Assembly (NCBI GenBank): GCA_016806715.1
Contig: CP060531.1
Coordinates: 186,001 to 250,000 of the forward strand
Direction: 5' to 3'
Origin: Thermoplasmatales archaeon
Lineage (GTDB): Archaea > Thermoplasmatota > Thermoplasmata > Thermoplasmatales > Thermoplasmataceae
DNA length: 64,000 nt
The notes below the pieces were generated by a model. The model was given only the letters and a program-made list of their open reading frames with translations, made no database searches and was not told the origin of the DNA. This document shows, piece after piece, positions 50,537-63,976 of this stretch (positions are counted from its first letter, which is position 1; each line of letters begins with the position of its first letter). The translations under genes and the position numbers were made by a program.

Positions 50537-51376
50537 TCAGTTTTCGTGCAGGCTTAACTTCTTTTCTTCTCGCTGACCGCGCCTCACCTTTATTATCTCG
50601 GAAATTATGCTAAGTGCAATTTCTTCAGGAGTTACCGAGCCTATCTCAATACCTATTGGTGCATGCAGGGACTCCATAAACTGACTTGATACGCCCCTTG
50701 ATTGAAGGGTCTCGAAGTCAGCCTTTATGCGTTTCCGGCTAGCCAGCAATCCAACATATTTAACGCCACACCGCGATACAGCTTCCAAGGCATCAATATC
50801 ACTGGCGCCCTTTGTAAGGATGACCACATAGTCGTCCTCGCTAAACTTGAAATTGCTTAATGGACTGGTGACAGAATTCACAAGAACATCCGGATCTGAA
50901 TCCAGAACAGGATTGGGATCAATTACGACTACCTGCATGTCAATCATTTTCCCGAGTTTTACGAGTCCATTCTCGATATCGTCCTTTCCACCCTGCCCAA
51001 CTATCACGAGCCTTTCCGATGGCCTGAACGGCTCCAGGAAGATGTCCATTATTCCTCCGCAGAAAGTCTCAACGTGTATTTCATTATCCCTGTTGATGGT
51101 TATACCCTCAAGTGCTTCCTTGGTGCTTTCCAGGTAAACCTTTATAACTTTTGCCTCACCAGAGGCTAGAACTTCTTTGGCTTTTTCTATAATCGCGGAA
51201 TCCGGGCAAGCTCCGCCAAGGGTTCCATAAACAACCCTCCCGTCCGATGATATTACGGTCCTGAACCCAGGCTTGCCTATTGACGAACCCGATACGTTCA
51301 CAACCGTGGCGACAACAAAGGGCTGGCCTTTCTTTACCAACTCAGAAATAACCTCAGGAAACTCCCAGTTTTTCAA
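50537..51376 (-). CDS. XdhC/CoxF-family molybdenum hydroxylase maturation factor
   Basis: XdhC-type proteins bind the molybdenum cofactor, help sulfurate it and insert it into xanthine-dehydrogenase-like enzymes. The 279-residue protein has the N-terminal block PFVVATVVNVSGSSIGKPGFRTVI and GTLGGACPDSAIIEKA with the conserved Cys. The C-terminal Rossmann part has RLVIVGQGG and ends in GIEIGSVTPEEIALSIISEII, a family hallmark. It is divergent from the CoxG-like gene and near the hydroxylase subunits, so it serves that enzyme. Confidence 0.93.
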   Translation of the reverse strand: MKNWEFPEVISELVKKGQPFVVATVVNVSGSSIGKPGFRTVISSDGRVVYGTLGGACPDSAIIEKAKEVLASGEAKVIKVYLESTKEALEGITINRDNEIHVETFCGGIMDIFLEPFRPSERLVIVGQGGKDDIENGLVKLGKMIDMQVVVIDPNPVLDSDPDVLVNSVTSPLSNFKFSEDDYVVILTKGASDIDALEAVSRCGVKYVGLLASRKRIKADFETLQSRGVSSQFMESLHAPIGIEIGSVTPEEIALSIISEIIKVRRGQREEKKLSLHEN

Positions 51377-51491
51377 TGTTTTTAAATATAGTTTATTGAT
51401 ATAAATTGTTTTTCATTCTTTTCACTGGCAACAGGTTTAACCTCGCGTTCACAAAATTAATGTCTGCGGATTGCATCAGCAATCGAGTATC
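51377..51491. promoter_or_regulatory. Divergent promoter region of xdhC-like and coxG-like genes
   Basis: About 115 bases separate the two divergent starts. It holds TATA-like TTTAAATATAG and TTATTGATATAAATTG segments close to the minus-strand start. A shared regulator could control both, but no clear operator palindrome was found. Confidence 0.4.
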
Positions 51492-51944
51492 ATGCAGTTC
51501 AATGGCGAGTTTGAGGTGGCAGCACCCATAAATGAAGTCTATTCATTCCTTTCAGATATAGATAAAATAATAGCAATAATACCTGACTTATTGTCCGTGG
51601 AAAAAATTGACGCAAATTCCTCACGTCTATCAGTCAAGGCGGGCCTATCCTTTATAAAGGGAAAATTCAACCTGCTTTTTGAGATCAAAGACAGGAAGGA
51701 GGACGAATCTGTTGCGGTATCGGCTAGAGGTTCCGGTTCCGGCAGTTCCCTCGACCTCAAGGCATCATATGCCCTCAGGCCTGTTGACGCTGGGAAAACT
51801 GCAGTGAGCTGGAACGTGGAAATGACCATGGGCGGGATGGTTGCCAGCATGGGGTCCCGGGTACTGAACGGTGCTGCAGAGAAGTATATCAAGACACTGA
51901 CGGCGAGTTTCCAGAGATCGTTTGAAGATGGCACGAAGCAGTGA
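51492..51944 (+). CDS. CoxG-like SRPBCC protein
   Basis: This is a 150-residue protein of the CoxG/SRPBCC fold. MQFNGEFEVAAPINEVYSFLSDIDKIIAIIPDL is the usual start, followed by the KAGLSFIKGKFNLLFEI strand pair and an amphipathic C-terminal helix (AAEKYIKTLTASFQRSF). In carboxydotrophs CoxG recruits CO dehydrogenase to the membrane; a similar recruiting role for the neighbouring hydroxylase is likely. I choose the ATG at 51492; the frame is open from TTG 51471. It overlaps the MocA-like gene by 17 bases. Confidence 0.88.
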   Translation: MQFNGEFEVAAPINEVYSFLSDIDKIIAIIPDLLSVEKIDANSSRLSVKAGLSFIKGKFNLLFEIKDRKEDESVAVSARGSGSGSSLDLKASYALRPVDAGKTAVSWNVEMTMGGMVASMGSRVLNGAAEKYIKTLTASFQRSFEDGTKQ

Positions 51945-52536
51945 ACATGGGCAGGAAGTATATGCCGTAATCCTGGCGGCTGGGTTTTCTACGAGATTCG
52001 GTAGCGACAAGCTCGTCTCGGATATAGGTGGCAGGACTGTTCTCCAGAGATCTGTTGAAAATGTGCTGGGTACTTCTGTGGATAAAGTTGCGGTTGTTGT
52101 CCCGAACGATGGCAAACTGGACAATTACCTGCCTTCGTCAGTACACAGGATTTACAATCCGGAAAGAACAGGCGGAATAAGCACATCCATAGCAGCTGGA
52201 GTTAATTTTTTTAGAAATTCTGCAAACGGGATCCTGTTAATGGTTGCAGATCAGCCACTGGTGGATTCCGGAACACTTGACAAGCTGCTGTCCTTATTCA
52301 GGGAAAATCCATCAAGCATCGTGGCTTGTTCTGTGAGTGGCGAGATTAGGAATCCCATGATATTCCCGGCCAGGCTTTTCGGAAGCCTGGTGTCTCTCAA
52401 GGGAGACAGCGGGGCAAAAGAACTTGCCCTATCCAGGATCGGGGAATTAAAAACTGTAGAAGTTGATCCGGAAAAGCTCATGGACGTGGATACCATCGAT
52501 GACCTGAAACAAGTTTTGTCGATGATTAGAAAATAA
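51928..52536 (+). CDS. MocA/MobA-like nucleotidyltransferase
   Basis: This 202-residue protein transfers a nucleotide (usually CMP) onto molybdopterin to form the dinucleotide cofactor of molybdenum hydroxylases. The nucleotide-binding signature is VILAAGFSTRFGSDKLVSDIGG, and LLMVADQPLVDSGTL is the metal-site block. It lies between the coxG-like gene and the large subunit gene (convergent), consistent with cofactor supply for that enzyme. MCD rather than MGD is inferred from the family of its neighbour. Confidence 0.92.
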   Translation: MARSSEHGQEVYAVILAAGFSTRFGSDKLVSDIGGRTVLQRSVENVLGTSVDKVAVVVPNDGKLDNYLPSSVHRIYNPERTGGISTSIAAGVNFFRNSANGILLMVADQPLVDSGTLDKLLSLFRENPSSIVACSVSGEIRNPMIFPARLFGSLVSLKGDSGAKELALSRIGELKTVEVDPEKLMDVDTIDDLKQVLSMIRK

Positions 52537-52540
52537 TAGG

Positions 52541-54589
52541 TCAGAGAATATCCTCCGGCCTGATAGGTGTGTTCCTTATTCTCTTTCCGCTGGCTCTCTC
52601 AATTGCCCTTGCCAGTGCGGTTGGTACACCTATTGTCGGCGATTCTCCCAGTCCTTTTGCACCGTGTGGAAGCCGGGATGGATTCTCTGCTACCTTTACC
52701 TCGAAATTAGGTATATCCTCTGCTAGCGGCACACCGGCATCTGATATGCTTGAAGTCAGCAGCTGGCCATCCTCGTTGAATGCCATCTCCTCATGAAGAG
52801 TCTGCCCTATGCCCTGTGCCATTCCACCCTGTATCTGTCCAATTACCATATCCATGTTCAGGGCCCTGCCCACATCATAATACGCGGCACAATCCCTGAC
52901 TTTCACGTTTCCAAGTTGTCCGATATCAACCGTCGCCAGATTGGCTCCGAATGAGTTCAGCGATCCTTTTTGCTCTTCATTAACATATGCGTCAAATGTT
53001 CCAGACAGCAGTAGCTGAGTTGAGTATTTGCCAAATTTCGTGGTAACCTCGTCTTTTATTTTACGGCACGCAGAGATCACAGCCGCTCCGCCAACCATGG
53101 CGGATCGGCTTCCCCATGAACCCACACCACTTTGCAACTTCCCTGTATCTCCTCTGTATAAAGTCACCAGGTTCTCCGGGACTCCGAGTTCTTCGTTCAC
53201 AAGCTTCCGGACAAATACCTCATGGGCCTGTCCGTGGCTGTTTCCTCCGAGCCATACGCTAATCTTTCCATTTTCTGCCTTGACTCTGGCTGTTTCCCCA
53301 GGTGCAAATGCGGGAACAAGTACAAAGAAGGAGAAACCAATGTTCCTGGTGGACTTTGCCTTCCTCCTGTAGTCCAGTTCTTTCACAGCCTGTTCTATGA
53401 ATGGCCTAGCTGCATCAATTTCCATCCCGAGAGGTGATTTGAATTTTGTGTCCCCGGAATTGAGTATCCTCAGATCAACCGGATCGATTTTCAACTCGTC
53501 AGCAAGCTTGTCCACCATCCTCTCAATGAAGAACGAAGCTTCCGGTCTTCCAGCTCCCCGATATGGACCCAGTGTGACCTTGTTGGTCAGTACAGAAGTT
53601 GATTTTACGTGTGCATTCTCAATCATGTATGGGCCGGTCATCATTGAGGCTATGAAGCGGGATGCGAATTCTCCCATTCCTGCACCATAAGCACCTGCAT
53701 CTACAATTGCCTCCCCCTTGAGTCCCGTTATCTTCCCTGACTTTTCGGCAAAGATTTTTACAATGCCCTTTGCCCCTCTCCCATGGCTTGTTGAAGAGAG
53801 ATGTTCCCTTCTTGTCTCTATCCACTTAACAGGCTTTCGAAATTTCATTGAGGCATAGGCTGCTATTACGTACTCCGGGTATAGGCCGCCCTTTGATCCA
53901 AATGCACCGCCAGTATCAGCCTGCATTACCCTCACGCTGTCCGGATTCAATCTGAGGGCTTCGCACAGCCCTTCCTTTATGCTATGAACTGACTGTGTGG
54001 ATACCCATACATTTAGCATTTTCCCGTCATAATCCGTCACTATGCCTCTGGGTTCAATGGGATTTGTTGCAATCCTGTTGTTCATGAAGACATCCTCAAG
54101 AACTATGGGTGAGGACGGGTCAGGGAAGTCCTTTCCTCTCCACCCCTCTGAAATAACATTGCTCTTAAGACCGGGGTGTATTGGGGGAGAAGACATTGCA
54201 TCTTCAATACTTACAACCGGTTTGAGTGGTTCATATTCAACCTCAACAGAATCCAGCAGGTCTTCAGATTTATACCTGTCATCGGCAAATACCGCAGCGA
54301 CTGCCTCACCGACGAAGTTGACATAACCTGTCGCGAACACTGGCTGGATCACGTTGTTCTCTCCCTCGGTTGCTCCTTCTCCAACCGATGCCATTTTCGC
54401 ACCTAAATCTGAAGCGGTCATTCCGCCCTTTATGCTCAGGATCCTTGCCCTTGCATAAGGACTGCGCACAATGGACATATGCAGCGATCCGGGTTTTATT
54501 ATGTCGTCAACGAAGTGACCCTTTCCTTCTACAAAGGATCTTTCATTGTAGGCCAGGTCGTCCTTTGCTCTCGTAAAATATGATGACAT
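52541..54589 (-). CDS. Molybdenum hydroxylase large subunit (CoxL form II-like)
   Basis: This large catalytic subunit of a xanthine oxidase-family enzyme has 682 residues, at the short end for the family. Cofactor and active-site blocks are GGAFGSKGG, LGPYRGAGRPEASFFIERM, the QAHEVFVR segment and the catalytic Glu in AKGLGESPTIG. The loop reads PYRGAGR, the form II version, not the AYRCSFR loop of true CO dehydrogenase, so CO oxidation is unlikely. An aldehyde or N-heterocycle oxidoreductase is a better guess. It is encoded with FeS and FAD subunits in one operon. Confidence 0.92.
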   Translation of the reverse strand: MSSYFTRAKDDLAYNERSFVEGKGHFVDDIIKPGSLHMSIVRSPYARARILSIKGGMTASDLGAKMASVGEGATEGENNVIQPVFATGYVNFVGEAVAAVFADDRYKSEDLLDSVEVEYEPLKPVVSIEDAMSSPPIHPGLKSNVISEGWRGKDFPDPSSPIVLEDVFMNNRIATNPIEPRGIVTDYDGKMLNVWVSTQSVHSIKEGLCEALRLNPDSVRVMQADTGGAFGSKGGLYPEYVIAAYASMKFRKPVKWIETRREHLSSTSHGRGAKGIVKIFAEKSGKITGLKGEAIVDAGAYGAGMGEFASRFIASMMTGPYMIENAHVKSTSVLTNKVTLGPYRGAGRPEASFFIERMVDKLADELKIDPVDLRILNSGDTKFKSPLGMEIDAARPFIEQAVKELDYRRKAKSTRNIGFSFFVLVPAFAPGETARVKAENGKISVWLGGNSHGQAHEVFVRKLVNEELGVPENLVTLYRGDTGKLQSGVGSWGSRSAMVGGAAVISACRKIKDEVTTKFGKYSTQLLLSGTFDAYVNEEQKGSLNSFGANLATVDIGQLGNVKVRDCAAYYDVGRALNMDMVIGQIQGGMAQGIGQTLHEEMAFNEDGQLLTSSISDAGVPLAEDIPNFEVKVAENPSRLPHGAKGLGESPTIGVPTALARAIERASGKRIRNTPIRPEDIL

Positions 54590-55098
54590 TATTGCTCCAC
54601 CATAATTCCTTCTTTCTCGGCTTCATCCGCCTTCATGAGTTTTGATGCATATGTAATAGAATCCACAATACTCTGGTACCCTGTGCACCTGCACAAGTTG
54701 CCGGAGAGACTCCTGCGTATCTCCTCCTCAGTGGGGTTCTTGTTTCTGCTGAGAAGCCAGAATGATGTCATAATCATTCCTGAGGTGCAATAGCCGCACT
54801 GGAGACCATGCTTTTCGAGGAAAGCTTCCTGTATAGGGTGAAGTTTTCCGCCGCTGGACAGGTTTTCAATTGTCGTAACCTCTTTTCCGTCTACCTGGGC
54901 TGCAAGCATGGTGCATGACTTCACTGCTTTCCCGTCTACCAGCACAGTACAGGCACCACAGTTTGAGGTATCACACCCTACGTGCGTCCCAGTAAGTCCA
55001 AGGTCTTCCCTGAGGTAATGCACAAGCAACTTTCTTGGCTCAACCGCCGATTCAACTCTCTTTCCGTTCACTTTCACTTTTATATTAATGTTATCCAT
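54589..55098 (-). CDS. Molybdenum hydroxylase [2Fe-2S] subunit (CoxS-like)
   Basis: This 169-residue electron-transfer subunit has two [2Fe-2S] clusters. The plant-ferredoxin-type cluster is [16 protein letters not shown] with a following Cys (VKSCTML). The second is CGYCTSGMI ... [12 protein letters not shown]. It overlaps the large-subunit start by one base and follows the FAD subunit directly. Confidence 0.96.
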
Positions 55099-55971
55099 TT
55101 ATCTCTCCTCCGCCCGGTCTGCAGCCAGATATATGGCATCTATTGCAATCTTCTCCAGAACACGTCTCTTGAATTCCGATGTTCCATAGAAGTCCGTTGA
55201 TGGATCAGAATCTGCTACCACCAAACGTGCTGCCTCCTGGACAGCAGAATCATCAATCTTCTTTCCCCTGAGGTAATTCTCAGCCTTCACTGCCCTAATC
55301 GGTTTCGGTCCCACTGAAGTCATACCCAGGCCTGCTCTCTCAACCTTTCCGGAACGATCTAACTTCAACTGGACTGCGATGCCGGCAACTGAGAAATCTC
55401 CTGCGGTCTTCTTGTTCTTTATATAACATCCTCCCTCATTCCCACTGTACTTTGGTATTATTATTTCCCTGAGTATTTCCCCGTATTCGAGTGCTGTGGT
55501 GAACGAGTCTATGAAAAACGCATCCGCTCCGACAGTTCTGTTGCCATTACTTTTAGCTATCACAAAACTTGCGCCAAGTGCCAGCATTACCGCGGGCATG
55601 TCGTTTGACGGATCGCCATGTGAAATGTTTCCACCTATGGTGCCCCTATTTCTTACCAGAGGATCGGCTACATTTGAGGCAGCATCAAATATGATAGGAT
55701 ATTTTCCCCTGATCACGTCGCTGATCTCGAGGTCATCCATGGTTGTCAGGGCACCAAGCCTGAGGGCATCCGGAGATTCCTTGATATATTTCATATCTCC
55801 GATCCCGGAAATATCCACGAGGTATGGAATCGATGTCAGCCTTAGCTTCAGAAGAGGTATGAGACTCTGACCACCTGCAAGTATCTTTGCTTCTCCGTCA
55901 TGTTTTGCAAGAATTTCAAATGCCTCATCAATCCTCTTTGGCGCATAATATTCGAATGAGGATGGATTCAT
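55099..55971 (-). CDS. Molybdenum hydroxylase FAD subunit (CoxM-like)
   Basis: This 290-residue flavoprotein subunit passes electrons from the FeS subunit to an acceptor. FAD-binding blocks are AGGQSLIPLLKLRL and TIGGNISHGDPSNDMPAVMLAL. It is the first gene of the FAD - FeS - Mo operon. TATA-like TTAAATATC is about 26 bases before its start. Confidence 0.95.
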   Translation of the reverse strand: MNPSSFEYYAPKRIDEAFEILAKHDGEAKILAGGQSLIPLLKLRLTSIPYLVDISGIGDMKYIKESPDALRLGALTTMDDLEISDVIRGKYPIIFDAASNVADPLVRNRGTIGGNISHGDPSNDMPAVMLALGASFVIAKSNGNRTVGADAFFIDSFTTALEYGEILREIIIPKYSGNEGGCYIKNKKTAGDFSVAGIAVQLKLDRSGKVERAGLGMTSVGPKPIRAVKAENYLRGKKIDDSAVQEAARLVVADSDPSTDFYGTSEFKRRVLEKIAIDAIYLAADRAEER

Positions 55972-56187: not shown

Positions 56188-57600
56188 TCATTTGCCTCTG
56201 CTTTTCATAAGCGATGTCATTGCTCCAATGATAGCCAGTATAGCGGAAACGAGCATAACAATCCTAAAACCACTTACAAAACTGCCGTAAAAAAACGGTG
56301 TAATCGTTACCACGGTTCCCGAAAACATGCCTGTTATTAGGGATGCAGGCAAAAAAAGAGAGAGGATCAGGGTCGCGGCTACAATACTCATCATCTGGCC
56401 TGTGAACCTCATTGTGCCAAGGAAACCTGAGGCTATACTTGAATCCTCTCTCCTCACCGACCCCATGACGGAATTAGTATTCGGGGCAGAAAATAAGCCA
56501 AAACCGACCCCAATGAAACCCAGCAGGGCTGTGATGTCCAACCGGCTTACCGTGGATTCCAGGAATAGCAGCAAGAATGAAACCCCTATTATGACCATTC
56601 CTGATGAAGCTATCAGCCTAGATCCAAACCTGTCAGCGAGCTTTCCTGAAACAGGGGAAAGCAATACCATAAGCACTGGCTCGGGAAGTATGATTATTCC
56701 GCTAAGGAACGGGTTAACATGCAGGATAACCTGTAAATATATGGAGAAGACGAAAACAATTGAAAAAGTGCTTACATAGTTAAGGAAGGCAGTAACATTT
56801 GATGCAATAAAAGTCCGGTTATTCCTGAAAACGGAAGGAGGGATAACCGGATTGGTTGAATTCTTCTCATAGTGCAGGAAGATCAGTAGGAAAAACAGCG
56901 ACAGTATTGGAAGGAAAGCCAGTTTCAGGTATCCAAAAATATCGCCAAATGCAGCATATGTGGTCAGCAGGACAAGGAACGTGGAGAACATCGAGACCTG
57001 CCGGAGATTGGTCTTTTCAGTCTTAGCCTTGATCTCCAAGCTTTTCATGCTTGGAATTGATATCAGTAATGCACAAATTGCCAGAGGTCCTGATAAAAAA
57101 AAGATCGATTCCCAGCCGCTTAGTTCTATCAGGAGTCCACCCAGGAAAGGGGCAAAGGTAAGGCCAAGATAGACTGCCATGGCATTTATTCCCAGCGCAA
57201 ATCCACGTCCGCCTGAGGAATATACATAACTTACGATTGCAGTAGAATTTGTGCTCAGAACGGCAGACCCGAGTCCCGTAAAGAAAATCATCATTACAAC
57301 ATACTGATAGTTGTGTATTGCCGGGACAAGAAGGGCTGAGGCGGCAAATATCAGAAGACCTGCCCTGAATATTTTGACTCTTCCAATGTCATCTGAAAGC
57401 CTTCCGAAGAAAATCATGAACGACGCCAGAGGTATGAGAAAAATCATTGGTAGAATGGCTACCTGGTAAAAAGTCAAGTGAAATGACACGCCTATTTTTG
57501 GAACGGCGAATGCTATGGCACTGGATAAAAATGGAGAAAGAAATGCAGCCATCGAGGTTGTGAGCAGGATGAATTTCCTCTTGACAGAGCCGTCATCCAT
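56188..57600 (-). CDS. MFS transporter, DHA2-like (14 TM)
   Basis: This is a membrane exporter of the major facilitator superfamily, about 470 residues from the chosen ATG at 57600 (MDDGSVKRKFILLTT). The frame continues to ATG 57720, but the extra 40 residues are polar and unlike a usual N-terminus. About 14 membrane helices are apparent. The MFS motif appears as IFFGRLSDDIGRVKIFRAGLL, with the second copy SPVSGKLADRFGSRLIA. Such proteins often export drugs or metabolites; the substrate is unknown. It is downstream of, but probably not in an operon with, the hydroxylase genes. Confidence 0.9.
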   Translation of the reverse strand: MDDGSVKRKFILLTTSMAAFLSPFLSSAIAFAVPKIGVSFHLTFYQVAILPMIFLIPLASFMIFFGRLSDDIGRVKIFRAGLLIFAASALLVPAIHNYQYVVMMIFFTGLGSAVLSTNSTAIVSYVYSSGGRGFALGINAMAVYLGLTFAPFLGGLLIELSGWESIFFLSGPLAICALLISIPSMKSLEIKAKTEKTNLRQVSMFSTFLVLLTTYAAFGDIFGYLKLAFLPILSLFFLLIFLHYEKNSTNPVIPPSVFRNNRTFIASNVTAFLNYVSTFSIVFVFSIYLQVILHVNPFLSGIIILPEPVLMVLLSPVSGKLADRFGSRLIASSGMVIIGVSFLLLFLESTVSRLDITALLGFIGVGFGLFSAPNTNSVMGSVRREDSSIASGFLGTMRFTGQMMSIVAATLILSLFLPASLITGMFSGTVVTITPFFYGSFVSGFRIVMLVSAILAIIGAMTSLMKSRGK

Positions 57601-58019
57601 GGAGAGATAGCTATACGTTGGGAATAAGTTTTTTTTCACAAGTGAAACGCCAGCATAAACATCTGCCGGATATCGAAATTCCCGATAAATTTCCGCTGGT
57701 ACTTTATTGCCATTCATCAAGGGATTGTTAACGAAGCCGTTAATCGGCAGTAAACATCAATAGTAAAGAGAATATTGCGGATGACAAGTAGATATGCATC
57801 TATAAATGACCAGCTCAAAAAAGCTTAAATAACAAGCCTATGCGTTCATAATGGCGCCGCAACACTGTTTCTGGGTGACATCACGTACCCGACCGGGAAT
57901 TCTGGTACAGATCCTATTTTCAACACTCTCAGCTTGAAATGAACATATTCAGATGATCTAATCAGCGCTATTTAGTGGACTTAAACAACATTTGTCTACA
58001 ACACTGTACAAAGAACCGA
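57601..58019. other. Intergenic region with possible coding remnant
   Basis: About 420 bases if the MFS start at 57600 is right. On the plus strand a strong TATA-like sequence (AAAAAAGCTTAAATAAC, near 57816-57832) is followed by a short ATG frame at 57850. A shifted frame near 57855-57943 reads like the end of a secreted or surface protein (TLFLGDITYPTGNSGTDPIF). It may be the remnant of a lost gene; nothing intact is seen. Confidence 0.3.
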
Positions 58020-59873
58020 CTACCTCACCGTAGTTGTCCTGATGTGGTCAATTGTACTATGAAGGAATTCCGCGGTTTCGGCATCCTCACAAAAAACTAG
58101 CGTCCCTTTGATGCCTCTGGTAAGCAGAATCCTGTATCTGTTTATGAGCAGTTTTCTTGCAAGTTCATAAGCTTCCTTATCACCCATCTTTCCCTTGATA
58201 AATATTTTCCTGAGACTGTTTGCTCCGCCGGGTGAATCTTCGCAATTGTCTCCTAACTCAAATCTTTTGCCTCTCCAGACAAGGTCCCTTCCCCATACAA
58301 CACCAACATAATCTGCCTCAAATCCTTGGCTACCGTAAACAGATGCACATGTTTTCAGTGTGTTGGACTGTCCGTCAACCCAAAAAGGGGCGTACTCCTT
58401 CTTCGGGTCCATAAGCCATTTTATTGTAATTCCAGAATCCTTATAGAGATTGAAACCGGAGCTGAGAGGATAACCCACTCTCACATTTTCAACAGACTTC
58501 CTATCCTTACCGTCCCCTTTAGATTCGGTGAAGGAAGCTATGATCGCTGTTCTTCCCCTGCTCTGTAGACTCCTCAATTCCTGAATCATGTCTTTCAAGT
58601 CGCTAAAATATCTAATTTCGTAATCATTCAGCTCTGAGAATTCCAACTTGGAATTAAGTAGATCTTCCACAAACTCTCCATATTCGAGGCCATTTCTGTA
58701 AAGCCCTTTCAACTTCATGTGGGTAGCATTAGGATACACTTTCCTGAAGTTTTCCAATGTTCCCTGTTCTCCGCTGCTCAATATCTGCCTTTCGTCAAAA
58801 AAGAATACTGAGACACTTGCAGCTCTGCCTGCTAGTTGAATGTTTTCCAGTGTCATTCTTTGGGCTTCGTCAAAAATTGCCAGGTTTAGCTTACTATTCC
58901 ATCCTTTCTCTGCCACACCAGGATTATTAGGCCTTCCAGTGGAGAAATACTTTATCACTCCATCAAGTCCTCTATCGATAGATGCAAATAGTTTACGGAG
59001 AGATTCCACCATTCTGTTGTTCCTATAGCAAAGGATGCTCTGTTTGCCCAGGGTCTGGGCCCTGAGGAGAAGCTCTATGGCAATCATCGTCTTGCCTGAA
59101 CCAGGCCCACCTTCTATTAGGAACTCTCCGCTTTCATTCTTCTCAATGGCTTCGACCACTGCATTATAAATGTTGAGTTGATCATTATAAAGGCCAAAAC
59201 CTGTGTTTGCTAACGTTTCCATTGCACCTTGTCTCAAGTCCTGATAATGTTCCCTTATCGCAGAGAATAATGCTTTGTTCTGTCTGTATGTTGAACTAGA
59301 AAATATGTGCCCATTATCGTTTCCGTCCACGGTTGATATGAGAGTTTTGAGATAGCTCTCCAATTTTCCTTCTTCTGATTTGAAGACTATAATCTCTTCT
59401 TTGGTGTTGCGATCTACGTTGTACATTACCACCCTGCCATCTACTCTGAATGAGTCTCCGGATGAACTTGTGAAGCGTATTTTTCCAACGTAGTTGAGAA
59501 GTTGATACATGGGATTCACCTGTTTTTTTGGATTCTGGTCGGTTTCATAAATAAAAGAGTCTTGTTTGTTTGCCTTCTTCCATCCCTTCATTTCAAGTAC
59601 CACAGCATTTTTTTCCGGGCCCTCTGAAATAACTACCACATCGGCTCTTTCTCCGCTCCCAGGGATCCTGTACTCAAGTATTATAGACCCTTTTACACCT
59701 TTAAGAGTTCTCTTTAAATAGTTAAGCTCAGTTTTCCAGGAGTTTACTAGCTCAGTGGAAGGTTCCTGTCGAAACGATGCACGAAATCTATCGTTCAGGG
59801 ATGAAAGGAACTCTGGATTCTCTACTTCTTTCAAAAAACTAGACGTGGAAGAGAACCAAACAAAATTTCCCAT
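58020..59873 (-). CDS. PD-(D/E)XK nuclease fused to DUF2075-type helicase
   Basis: This 617-residue protein has two parts. The N-terminal ~200 residues carry a restriction-nuclease-like core with Asp78 (GERADVVVIS) and Glu94-x-Lys96 (VVLEMKGW). A P-loop helicase of the DUF2075/Schlafen-associated type follows. Walker A is GGPGSGKT (255-262), Walker B LAIFDEAQR (331-339), motif III FFFDERQIL, then VYGSQGFEADYVGVVWGRDL and NRYRILLTRGIKG at the C-terminus. Proteins of this kind are thought to act in defence against mobile DNA or in DNA processing. It is a single-gene unit. Activity and target are unproven. Confidence 0.85.
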   Translation of the reverse strand: MGNFVWFSSTSSFLKEVENPEFLSSLNDRFRASFRQEPSTELVNSWKTELNYLKRTLKGVKGSIILEYRIPGSGERADVVVISEGPEKNAVVLEMKGWKKANKQDSFIYETDQNPKKQVNPMYQLLNYVGKIRFTSSSGDSFRVDGRVVMYNVDRNTKEEIIVFKSEEGKLESYLKTLISTVDGNDNGHIFSSSTYRQNKALFSAIREHYQDLRQGAMETLANTGFGLYNDQLNIYNAVVEAIEKNESGEFLIEGGPGSGKTMIAIELLLRAQTLGKQSILCYRNNRMVESLRKLFASIDRGLDGVIKYFSTGRPNNPGVAEKGWNSKLNLAIFDEAQRMTLENIQLAGRAASVSVFFFDERQILSSGEQGTLENFRKVYPNATHMKLKGLYRNGLEYGEFVEDLLNSKLEFSELNDYEIRYFSDLKDMIQELRSLQSRGRTAIIASFTESKGDGKDRKSVENVRVGYPLSSGFNLYKDSGITIKWLMDPKKEYAPFWVDGQSNTLKTCASVYGSQGFEADYVGVVWGRDLVWRGKRFELGDNCEDSPGGANSLRKIFIKGKMGDKEAYELARKLLINRYRILLTRGIKGTLVFCEDAETAEFLHSTIDHIRTTTVR

Positions 59874-60001: not shown

Positions 60002-61846
60002 TCATGGATTTGTAGTTCTGTTTTGAATCTGCCCGAGTCCTCCCAGCGCCATGATCACTTCTCTTTCCCGGACCGTTCCTGCAAACTTCCCCTGAAGATC
60101 TACAATGGATAGGATTGGGATCCTGCTCTCCTTGAATGTCCTTATTATGTCCGTAACATCACTTTCCTTGCTGATGGTTACAGGCCGTTCCAGCCAGAGA
60201 TCTCTGACCTTCATCTTTTTCAGTTCATTTTCGGACAGCATGAAAACGTCCCTCAAGATGAGCGTCCCTGTAGGTACTGACCTTTGATCTATGACCACCG
60301 CTCCAGGGGAATCCATCGCAACGCACTTTTCAATCACCGCCTCAACGGAATCATCCAGTCTGACGACCACATCCGGGAGGGCATTCCTGATTTTAAGACT
60401 CGTAAGGTCCTTGAACTGTCCTGCAACCGAGACCTCGCCTCTTGTAAGTTTCGCAGCGTAAGGTGTTCTCATCACTATATCACGTATATCCATGATCACA
60501 TAACCGGCCACAATCCATACAAGAAAAAGAGTTGAGTAAATGATAAGAGTGGAAAATGCAGAATAAACCAATTCTACGGATGTGATTATCGCTGCCGTTC
60601 CTGCAAGAAAAACTTCCTTGTAACCCACCATGAACTGAAAAAGACCTTTTTTGCCCCTGAGGACGAGTCTCCTTCCCCGCCGGATTCCTACTCTCAGCAG
60701 AGATGCCCCGGCCATGACATGTATGAAGAGCCCAGCCAGAGATGCTATTGTACCTAAAATTATGAATGTGGAATATGCCGGGAGGAAATGAAGCATGATG
60801 AACGGAATCAGGATTATCAGGACGGAAACGGTAATATTTGCGTTAATTGGCTGGCCTCTCATCTTCCCGGCAAAGACCGACGGGAACGTTCTGTCATAGC
60901 CCATCCTGAAAATGGTTCTTGAGGCAGCAGAACCGAATGACAGTATTGCAAGTATTCCATCGTTGATTGCAGCAATGGATACAGCAAAGATCACGTACCT
61001 ACTGAAATATGAAAAATGCCCAGACAGGATGGAAAGGATAGGTAGGCCGGATTGCCCCAGAATATTCTCAATGCCTTTCTGAAACAGCAGGTTTGAAATG
61101 GAATAGATGAAAAGGGAGGCAAGGAGACCACCTGTAAGGATAACCGAAATTGCTGACCTTCCGACAACTTTTTCAGGGTTCTTTATTTCGCCTGAAATGG
61201 GGGCAATCGCACCATATCCAGTGGGGATACCCATGGCAAAGAGAATGCCGAGAGCCAGAGCGCCCGCGGATATATGGTGGGAAATTGGGTTTGGGACATA
61301 GGTAGCACCGCCAGTTAGGTAAAACGATATGTACACAATTACCAGAATAAGGCCGATTTCAGCTATACCTGTGTAAATCGCATACTTTGCTGAGGGCTTT
61401 ATTCCAATAATCAGGAAGAAAGATGCCGGCAAAACAATAGCAAGTAACGTTATGTATGTTGAAAACCCGAAGACCAGTGTTACTACGTAAACAGCCCCGA
61501 CCACATAGGCAAGTCCGAAGAGCAGGGAATAGAACAAATAGACCCAACCCGTACTGAATCCCACTCTTTCTGATAGTACCTGAAATGCATAGGTGTAGTA
61601 GCCTCCTGAAGTTTTGAATCTTTTGGACAGTTGCATCACCACTAGACCGTTGATCAAAACAAGCAACGTACCTATCATCATTATCAAAGGGGAGAGCAAA
61701 CCACCATACGCAAGAGCTACTGCACCATAAGTCAAAAGACTCAAAAGGGGGGACATACCTCCAAATGAGAGAAAGAAAACGTCTCTGAAAGAAAGATGCC
61801 TTGTGAGTTCAGAGTCTGAATTTTCGGTAGTAAGGGCCTCGCTCAT
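60002..61846 (-). CDS. APC-superfamily amino-acid permease with two C-terminal CBS domains
   Basis: This 614-residue protein has about 12 membrane helices of the amino-acid permease fold (FRDVFFLSFGGMSPLLSLLTYGAVALAYGG at the start; GIPTGYGAIAPISGEIKNPEKVVGRSA is the conserved loop). A soluble tail of about 140 residues holds two CBS modules (IRNALPDVVVRLDDSVEAVIEKC, and MKVRDLWLERPVTISKESDVTDIIRTF). CBS pairs bind adenine nucleotides and gate partner domains, so transport is probably tuned by cell energy state. Substrate is unknown. Confidence 0.9.
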   Translation of the reverse strand: MSEALTTENSDSELTRHLSFRDVFFLSFGGMSPLLSLLTYGAVALAYGGLLSPLIMMIGTLLVLINGLVVMQLSKRFKTSGGYYTYAFQVLSERVGFSTGWVYLFYSLLFGLAYVVGAVYVVTLVFGFSTYITLLAIVLPASFFLIIGIKPSAKYAIYTGIAEIGLILVIVYISFYLTGGATYVPNPISHHISAGALALGILFAMGIPTGYGAIAPISGEIKNPEKVVGRSAISVILTGGLLASLFIYSISNLLFQKGIENILGQSGLPILSILSGHFSYFSRYVIFAVSIAAINDGILAILSFGSAASRTIFRMGYDRTFPSVFAGKMRGQPINANITVSVLIILIPFIMLHFLPAYSTFIILGTIASLAGLFIHVMAGASLLRVGIRRGRRLVLRGKKGLFQFMVGYKEVFLAGTAAIITSVELVYSAFSTLIIYSTLFLVWIVAGYVIMDIRDIVMRTPYAAKLTRGEVSVAGQFKDLTSLKIRNALPDVVVRLDDSVEAVIEKCVAMDSPGAVVIDQRSVPTGTLILRDVFMLSENELKKMKVRDLWLERPVTISKESDVTDIIRTFKESRIPILSIVDLQGKFAGTVREREVIMALGGLGQIQNRTTNP

Positions 61847-61976: not shown

Positions 61977-62531
61977 ATGTGTCCATCCCCAAAACATCAA
62001 CATACACAGTCATTATCGACAGTGAAGAATGAGAAATACAGAGAAGTTCCTTTATTCCCAAGCGTCAAGGATGCATTCCAGAAGTATCTCACATTCAGGC
62101 AGGCTTTGATTGAGAAGACCAACAAAAACACCAGGTCATTGATGGTAACTCAATATGGAAAACCCGTAACGGATATTGGAGGCCATAACATCATTGACAG
62201 GATCGCAAAGAGAGCTGGCATCCCATTTTCGCCACACAGGGCAAGGAGATTCTATGGGGGATATCTGTGGGAAAATGGTCTGAAGCCTGAGCTTATTCAG
62301 CAACTCCTAGGTCATGAAAGCGTCGGAACCACAATGATTTTCATTCAGGCAGATGCTGAAGACGCATTTTCAGAGGTTAGAAAATACATGAAGAAACTGG
62401 ATTTTAGAGTGCCCCAGGGAAAGGTGGTGAAAGAAATGGTCTGTTACAACCTGAACTACATTGTATGCTCCGGTCGGGCGTTAGACACCATGATGCACTT
62501 CTCGGATGAACACCATGTTACCCCTGGGTGA
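61977..62531 (+). pseudogene. Tyrosine recombinase, C-terminal fragment (inactive-looking)
   Basis: This frame carries the C-terminal catalytic part of a tyrosine integrase: EKYREVPLFPSVKDAF, then SPHRARRFYGGYLWENG with the second catalytic Arg, and LLGHESVGTTMIFIQADAEDAF. At the place of the nucleophile Tyr the residue is Phe (MIFIQ), so the fragment should be dead. The N-terminal half and first catalytic Arg are missing; a matching piece occurs at 63788. The first ~20 and last ~30 residues look non-native, so the true fragment is about 62025-62430. Confidence 0.82.
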
Positions 62532-63062: not shown

Positions 63063-63558
63063 TCTTGTTATTGTAATCGGAATAGCTCTTGCTTTTTCGG
63101 GGGTTATGGTAAATCCAAATTTTCACAGTACTCCATCGACCACATTTTTGACTCCCAAATACACTGAATACAAGGAAGGATTCTACGAAACGCCCATCCC
63201 GTCTAATATGACAACACAAACCACAGACATCATGGTGGGTTTAAAAACTCTAGATAATGGTTCTCCGAATGTTTCCTTACTGGTCCCCATGAAATATCTC
63301 TCAAAAATAAATTCTACCAATATACGACAGTATGGTATAAATGAGTCAAGTAATGATTCAGCAGATGTGTGGTTCAACAATGTTCCAGCGGGCACTTATG
63401 CACTGGTCGAGTCTCAAAATGACTCATTAGTTGTCGTAGCATCACCTCAGATTCCGCTAGAACTCGGAGGCATCCTCACATTTGTAGGGGCGGCTTTGAT
63501 TGTATCTGGATTTGTTATCACTATACTTTCCGTTGCAATCAGGAGAAGAAATAGATAG
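63040..63558 (+). CDS. Small surface/membrane protein with two membrane segments
   Basis: This 172-residue protein has an N-terminal helix (VGYLVIVIGIALAFSGVMV) and an extracytoplasmic domain of about 110 residues with several N-glycosylation sequons. A C-terminal helix (LGGILTFVGAALIVSGFVITILSVAI) and a basic RRRNR end follow. AGGTGGGA precedes the ATG. A second copy of its promoter and start begins at 63978, so this is a tandem gene family. I recognise no domain; an element-linked surface function is possible. Confidence 0.75.
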   Translation: MCLRKVGYLVIVIGIALAFSGVMVNPNFHSTPSTTFLTPKYTEYKEGFYETPIPSNMTTQTTDIMVGLKTLDNGSPNVSLLVPMKYLSKINSTNIRQYGINESSNDSADVWFNNVPAGTYALVESQNDSLVVVASPQIPLELGGILTFVGAALIVSGFVITILSVAIRRRNR

Positions 63559-63787
63559 GAGAGATAATAAAACAGAAGACATGCAAACAGGAATTTTTGC
63601 AAACATTTTCGTCTTTCCTTTTGAGCTGCAACAAGTTAATTTTTTTGGTAAAACTTAACGCCCTTTATATACATACAATCAGATTTTCAAATGTCAGTAT
63701 ATAAGGGACCATAAAAAACCATTAAGTCTTGACATAAACTTAACAGGCATTTTGAGAGCCATTGCAAGATCATCAGGAAAATTTTAA
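63559..63787. other. Gene-free stretch before integrase N-fragment
   Basis: About 230 bases. The only structure is the near-perfect inverted repeat at 63661-63707. Frames are broken and no gene is supported. Confidence 0.5.
63661..63707. repeat. Inverted repeat CCCTTTATATAC / GTATATAAGGG
   Basis: Arms at 63661-63672 and 63697-63707 are complementary except for one extra T, with 24 bases between. Each arm also looks like a TATA box, pointing in opposite directions. It may be a recombinase or regulator site of the mobile element. Confidence 0.5.
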
Positions 63788-63976
63788 GCCAGGATCCTGA
63801 GGCCATCTGAGTGGGAAACACTGAGAGATAACCTGGACATTAACATGAAAAGGATATGCACATCTCTCCTGATAACTGGAATGAGGTATGCTGAATTGCA
63901 GAGATTCAGGGAGAATCCTGATTGGTTGAATGGAAGAATTTTTTATATTTTTCTTAAGTATGTGAGGTGGGAATAG
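63788..63976 (+). pseudogene. Tyrosine recombinase, N-terminal fragment
   Basis: With no start codon and a stop just upstream (63785-63787), this frame reads RPSEWETLRDNLDINMKRICTSLLITGMRYAELQRF, then NPDWLNGRIF. LLITGMRYAEL is the first catalytic-Arg block of archaeal tyrosine integrases. The integrase match ends at about 63937-63950, where the 63-bp repeat begins. It corresponds to the part missing from the C-terminal fragment at 61977. Both are on the plus strand, with the C-part upstream. Confidence 0.72.

Follow-up and report, generated by a model that had tools for sequence, protein, structure and literature searches.

A gene at positions 58020-59873 (minus strand) of a 64,000-nt stretch of the genome of a Thermoplasmatales archaeon (assembly GCA_016806715.1, contig CP060531.1; the whole stretch is referred to below as the window) probably encodes a single-gene, horizontally moving, DNA-degrading defence enzyme that resembles the nuclease-helicase Nhi and belongs to the PDC-S41 type. 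The gene is one intact open reading frame (ORF) with an ATG start and specifies 617 amino acids, in a genome that consists of a single contig of 1.96 Mb. Its product joins a predicted PD-(D/E)XK nuclease domain at the N-terminus to a superfamily 1 (SF1) helicase at the C-terminus. This reading draws on invariant catalytic residues, structure prediction, profile matches to defence families and a patchy distribution that is at odds with species relationships.

A nuclease domain fused to a helicase

An earlier sequence-only reading of the window had placed a PD-(D/E)XK-like domain with Asp78 and Glu94-x-Lys96 at the N-terminus, and residue conservation and the predicted fold both bear it out. All 34 homologues aligned have E67, R76, D78, E94, K96 and Q124, a level of conservation far past chance. 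Structure prediction, which had been set beforehand as a check, gives a nuclease fold: the AlphaFold2 model of residues 1-210 has a predicted local distance difference test (pLDDT) value of 92.4 and a predicted template modelling (pTM) score of 0.89, compared with 88.8 and 0.85 for the full-length protein. The modelled elements (helix 40-56, strands 63-69, 76-82 and 89-96, helix 121-135 and strand 143-150) follow the order of the alpha-beta-beta-beta-alpha-beta PD-(D/E)XK core, with D78 on the second strand, E94-x-K96 at the end of the third and Q124 in the second helix; in the model, the core topology and the placement of the Asp and of the (D/E)xK motif are those of a PD-(D/E)XK enzyme. Residues 1-210 are thus predicted to form a metal-dependent (Mg2+) PD-(D/E)XK nuclease.

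The top structural neighbour of the nuclease model is Can2 (8q41_B; Z 9.0, 3.5 Å, 127 residues), followed by VC1899, Cdn1, Card1, EndoMS, BsoBI, SduA of Shedu, Hjc, Kpn2I and FokI (Z at most 9.0), with the repair nuclease Bax1 also among the matches; these top neighbours we take to be mostly members of the PD-(D/E)XK superfamily. By itself, Foldseek returned nothing for the nuclease model with E under 0.001, so that the fold is recognized through its topology and motifs and not through a close relative. Similarly, a profile of the nuclease domain found no sequence relative among solved structures, its three matches being chance ones (E at least 0.3). The NERD domain (PF08378), the only nuclease-type Pfam match in the N-terminus, was rejected at 16.3 bits against a cut-off of 22.1.

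The C-terminal half is a DUF2075/Schlafen-type helicase, as had also been read from the sequence. The Pfam family PF09848 (SLFN-g3_helicase) matches with 196.2 bits against a gathering cut-off of 24, and residues 251-597 align to positions 4-354 of the 354 in the profile. Walker A (GGPGSGKT) occupies residues 255-262 and Walker B starts at D335-E336; G255, G258, K261, D335, E336, R339 and many other helicase positions are invariant in the 34 homologues, and both Walker motifs are intact in every aligned row. The helicase model superimposes on UvrD (Z 21.5, 3.9 Å, 311 residues) and on human SLFN11 (Z 19.1, root-mean-square deviation [rmsd] 3.2 Å, 271 residues), and SLFN14, AddAB and AdnAB match as well. 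In a library of viral structures, the 50 matches listed were generic helicases, none of them specific.

Relation to catalogued and characterized systems

The best PADLOC match of the whole protein is PDC-S41 (PDLC05014), a single-gene candidate system, at E 5.1e-26; the acceptance cut-off for this family is not part of the scan output. The nuclease half by itself matches at 1.2e-09 (residues 4-104 onto profile positions 4-98) and the helicase half by itself at 1.2e-14 (profile positions 504-625). Since both halves match in the order of the profile, the match runs the length of the protein, across both domains, and the architecture is one already catalogued as a defence candidate, of which the present gene is a good example and not a new kind. 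The size is also comparable (profile 657, against 617 amino acids here), and the other homologues give the same PADLOC picture. PDC-S41 is itself a catalogued candidate, with putative defence activity and without a mechanism to compare; a literature search for the name "PDC-S41" found no paper, which reflects the name only.

Two further profiles match the helicase, that of Nhi at 4.6e-18 (residues 228-455) and that of AbiO at 4.9e-18 (residues 223-445 only). Nhi, the nuclease-helicase immunity protein SERP2475 of Staphylococcus epidermidis, is a single gene shown experimentally to act against phages (PMC12904381, PMC11811056); it is reported to nick and unwind DNA, with variation in the phage single-stranded DNA-binding protein setting sensitivity (PMC12904381), and to protect without abortive infection (PMC11811056). 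The present protein is like Nhi in that one gene supplies both nuclease and helicase and that the helicases are homologous. It differs in length (the Nhi profile has 470 positions), in a nuclease half that the Nhi profile leaves unmatched, and in its archaeal host, for which there is no known trigger; the two nucleases could nevertheless both be of the PD-(D/E)XK kind. The likeness to AbiO is likewise one of homologous helicases, whereas the AbiO profile has no match in the nuclease half.

The human group III Schlafens (SLFN11, SLFN14) share the helicase fold and the Pfam-named helicase group, but here the N-terminus is PD-(D/E)XK: no Schlafen RNase core was found, and none of the 16 matches that Pfam gave with an E limit of 10 is a Schlafen/AlbA N-terminal core. 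Dna2, AddAB, Hachiman and Hna also couple a nuclease to a helicase, and Dna2 is among the Foldseek matches; these are systems of other helicase subfamilies or subunit layouts, and none gave a comparable sequence match in the profile scans made.

Distribution and inheritance

Of the family's 77 genomes, 36 have a homologue (E at most 0.001), as do 21 of the 35 of good quality and 13 of 19 genera; 41 genomes, 14 of them of good quality, have none. Homologues with a named source come from Thermoplasmata or Ferroplasmaceae metagenome bins. All four genomes of the genus carry a homologue, of two kinds: that of G003 is 72-73% identical, and those of G001 and G002 are about 34-36% identical. Thermosome identity is 97% for G001 and G002, the nearest relatives tested, 93% for G003, 78% for G062 and 81-83% for genus g2 (genomes in which the orthologue was found), whereas the nuclease-helicases of G062 (73-74%) and g2 (67-72%) stand in the opposite order. 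In the gene tree G000, G003, G062 and g2 form one fully supported clade and G001 and G002 fall into another. The G062 copy lies on a 3.4-kb contig with coverage of 1.4 and could be misbinned; the argument from discordance stands without it.

The position of the gene varies. In G001 a block made up of the cox-like operon and the MFS-type transporter is collinear with the window and is followed by ferredoxin-type ORFs, with the nuclease-helicase absent at the site; the APC orthologue of this genome is on a separate contig, and the distant homologues of G001 and G002 lie elsewhere in their genomes. Across genera the position is not conserved, and homologues keep the same position only within g2 and g6. 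Presence in 36 of 77 genomes, neighbours that differ between genera and the discordant tree together rule out a core gene. By these comparisons the gene appears as an accessory, horizontally moving one, distinct versions of which are exchanged among acidophilic archaea. The accessory and mobile character proposed earlier has thus held up, the empty site in G001 and an integrase remnant near the gene (see below) included.

The ratio of nonsynonymous to synonymous substitution (dN/dS, NG86) is about 0.07-0.19 in five close homologue pairs with unsaturated dS, which argues that the protein is maintained for function; dS was not computable for the three pairs that include the window gene and was saturated in one more, so that purifying selection is seen in close homologue pairs and not directly in the window gene. 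One genome (G021) holds a decayed homologue with 18 in-frame stops.

Some further observations concern the wider family. A second, distant class of homologues, 22-24% identical and with an insertion in the helicase, was seen at loci L065, L072-L075, L014 and L015; some genomes, for example G012, G014, G072 and G088, contain both classes. In the window, a cox-like molybdenum hydroxylase operon (50537-55971) is found a few kb from the gene, and three g2 genomes (L043, L044, L045) also have it within a few kb, there on the other side and in the other orientation; order and orientation thus differ between the window and g2, and this was not counted as synteny.

Proposed mode of action and alternatives

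In the mode of action proposed here, the SF1 helicase would bind invading DNA and move along it using ATP, probably acting at junctions of single- and double-stranded DNA or at replication intermediates, while the Mg2+-dependent nuclease would nick or cut the DNA under unwinding; the outcome would be degradation of virus or plasmid DNA. Given a UvrD/Schlafen-type motor fused to a metal-dependent nuclease, unwinding and cutting of DNA is the simplest reading, and the gene's accessory status, its exchange between lineages and its place in a candidate defence family make virus or plasmid DNA the likeliest target. A DNA rather than RNA substrate, a foreign target, the trigger and the absence of a partner protein are the steps that we infer. 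Membership in PDC-S41 and the helicase matches to Nhi and AbiO support a putative defence role. The sequence-only reading had spoken of a candidate defence system; "candidate" stands on these matches, and the role itself stays at that strength. The gene supplies a representative of PDC-S41 that is compact, well conserved and accessible to experiment, and whose catalytic residues are defined.

Several observations weigh against this reading. The Nhi profile fails to match residues 1-210 even with E as high as 1. At 42.4%, the G+C content of the gene is only slightly low relative to the window (44.7%). The gene is also stable in the short term, since its neighbours are the same across the 3-4 genomes compared within genera g2 and g6. 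A pattern scan of IMG/VR returned no close relative, and only distant matches were found in 3 phage and 20 plasmid records. Finally, defence genes do not cluster around homologues clearly above a flawed control.

The last point comes from PADLOC scans. The neighbour set held 226 clusters of neighbouring ORFs, of which 140 were picked by distance and 90 scanned; these matched 147 families, AbiEi/AbiEii, PDC-S27, OLD/AAA-like and Cas12f/TnpB-like among them. Related profiles inflate such family totals, which should not be read as numbers of proteins. When ten chosen neighbours were scanned singly, four had matches that could point to genuine defence or transposon genes, a fifth had a generic match of the methyltransferase type, and the other five had none. 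The control, in which 90 of 116 ORFs were scanned, matched 88 families and was not neutral, holding as it did an AbiE pair and a type III restriction-modification system beside the APC orthologue of G035. A second comparison, around APC orthologues (55 of 93 ORFs), matched 44 families, and most of the 25 listed were generic helicases. From both comparison sets, near-duplicate rows, short ORFs and the APC genes had been removed by hand.

The structural likenesses that suggest DNA processing would also fit a host enzyme of repair or recombination, a Dna2- or AddAB-like nuclease-helicase that processes ends or flaps and has no special defence role. Foldseek with the whole model gives the nuclease-helicase Dna2 at ranks 2-3, AddAB and AdnAB are among the helicase matches, and EndoMS, Bax1 and Hjc are among those of the nuclease. 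If it had a core role in repair, however, the gene should be present throughout and vertically inherited; the absences noted above (41 of 77 genomes, 14 of 35 good ones), the strong discordance between gene and species and the occurrence of several distant copies in a single genome (for example three in G088) make such a role unlikely. A different outcome, growth arrest, would follow if the helicase sensed viral nucleic acid and the nuclease cut host RNA or any DNA, as an RNA-directed or suicidal effector comparable to Schlafen RNases or CARF-linked PD-(D/E)XK nucleases. Can2, Card1 and Cdn1, the best structural matches of the nuclease, are signal-activated ancillary nucleases of CRISPR systems; the helicase fold also resembles those of SLFN11 and SLFN14. 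Yet the Schlafen match is in the helicase and not in the SLFN RNase core, the Pfam scan revealed no ligand-sensing domain, and similarity of fold leaves the substrate unfixed, so that we regard an effector of this kind as improbable.

It is most improbable that the gene belonged to an integrated virus or plasmid, served that element's own replication or its competition with other elements, and was left behind after decay. Such an origin would fit the distant homologues in phage and plasmid records and the broken integrase, which lies at a distance of about 2.1 kb and is partly repeated beyond the window; but no viral or plasmid replication genes were recognized alongside, the neighbours being transporters, the IMG/VR pattern scan found no relative, and close homologues in other genera adjoin metabolic genes such as the cox-like operon. 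The defence enzyme described above is the reading that we favour.

Possible link to vertebrate Schlafens

A more distant relationship may be raised tentatively, though we doubt it: prokaryotic nuclease-helicases of this kind may have been the template for the C-terminal two thirds of vertebrate group III Schlafens (the helicase and the segment before it), in which case residues 400-554 of SLFN14, the linker from RNase core to helicase, would be a decayed PD-(D/E)XK nuclease. These residues align weakly with the nuclease domain in two structures (9jr9_B, Z 4.9, 4.2 Å, 119 residues; 9nyy_B, Z 4.8, 3.6 Å, 102 residues), and in SLFN14 chain 9uie_B residues 11-599 of the model map onto 400-910 with order kept, at an rmsd of 15.7 Å. 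Against this proposal, the SLFN14 Z values are within the range of chance arrangements, SLFN11 is absent from the nuclease-domain matches listed, and no Schlafen is among the solved structures that the nuclease profile picks up by sequence. The archaeal gene would offer a simple prokaryotic counterpart to the Schlafen helicase.

The locus and its surroundings

The features discussed are collected in Table 1. As had been noted from the sequence, the gene stands alone. It has transporters on either side, lying 128 nt downstream of the adjoining APC-type ORF and 299 nt from the MFS-type ORF, all three being on the minus strand. The transporter types were read from translations. A "possible remnant" had also been suspected in the intergenic region 57721-58019; blastn gave no match to it in the loci compared, and the suspicion found no support. 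The integrase pieces about 2 kb away, by comparison, were correctly recognized as broken, and correspond to the truncated tyrosine recombinase of Table 1.

Table 1. Features of the window and selected neighbours of homologues at other loci
Feature	Position	Strand	Basis
Nuclease-helicase gene	58020..59873	-	ORF call; full-length relatives elsewhere; dN/dS <<1 in close homologue pairs
PD-(D/E)XK nuclease domain (predicted), residues 1-210	59244..59873	-	Invariant residues, AlphaFold2, structural matches, PDC-S41 match of residues 4-104
Schlafen-group-3 (formerly DUF2075) SF1 helicase PF09848, residues 251-597	58083..59123	-	Pfam, E 1.2e-57
APC-type transporter ORF, not part of the system	60002..61846	-	Type from reading of translation
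MFS-type transporter ORF	56188..57720	-	Type from translation; collinear with cox-like operon in same-genus G001
Truncated tyrosine recombinase (integrase) remnant	61977..62531	+	XerC-like match, residues 71-136 only, E 2.8e-07
Neighbour of homologue	L069:7517-8956		PDC-S27, 3.2e-53
Neighbour of homologue	L070:11242-12045		Adenine methylase
Neighbour of homologue	L058:11641-13305		OLD/AriA-like
Neighbour of homologue	L049:12793-14070		TnpB/Cas12f-like

APC orthologues in other genomes have different contexts. In G064 a DNA adenine methylase lies between the homologue (L070, 9406-11178) and the APC orthologue; counted from the homologue, the methylase is 64 nt away and the APC orthologue 1.9 kb. 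In G035 (L089), AbiE and the type III restriction-modification system come after the APC orthologue. The APC transporter may therefore mark an insertion hotspot at which defence genes accumulate; around 10 further APC copies (the 55 of 93 ORFs of the second comparison) there was no clear excess of defence genes. Upstream of the G064 homologue, ORFs at 919-8127 of L070 were read by eye as a CARF/HTH protein, an AAA helicase and a phospholipase-D-type protein, and may constitute a defence island.

Part of the integrase remnant (62270-62486) has a 217-nt copy, 93.5% identical, just past the end of the window (L063), where the region 63268-63945 also recurs (685 nt at 77%); these recurring segments represent a duplication around a decayed element.
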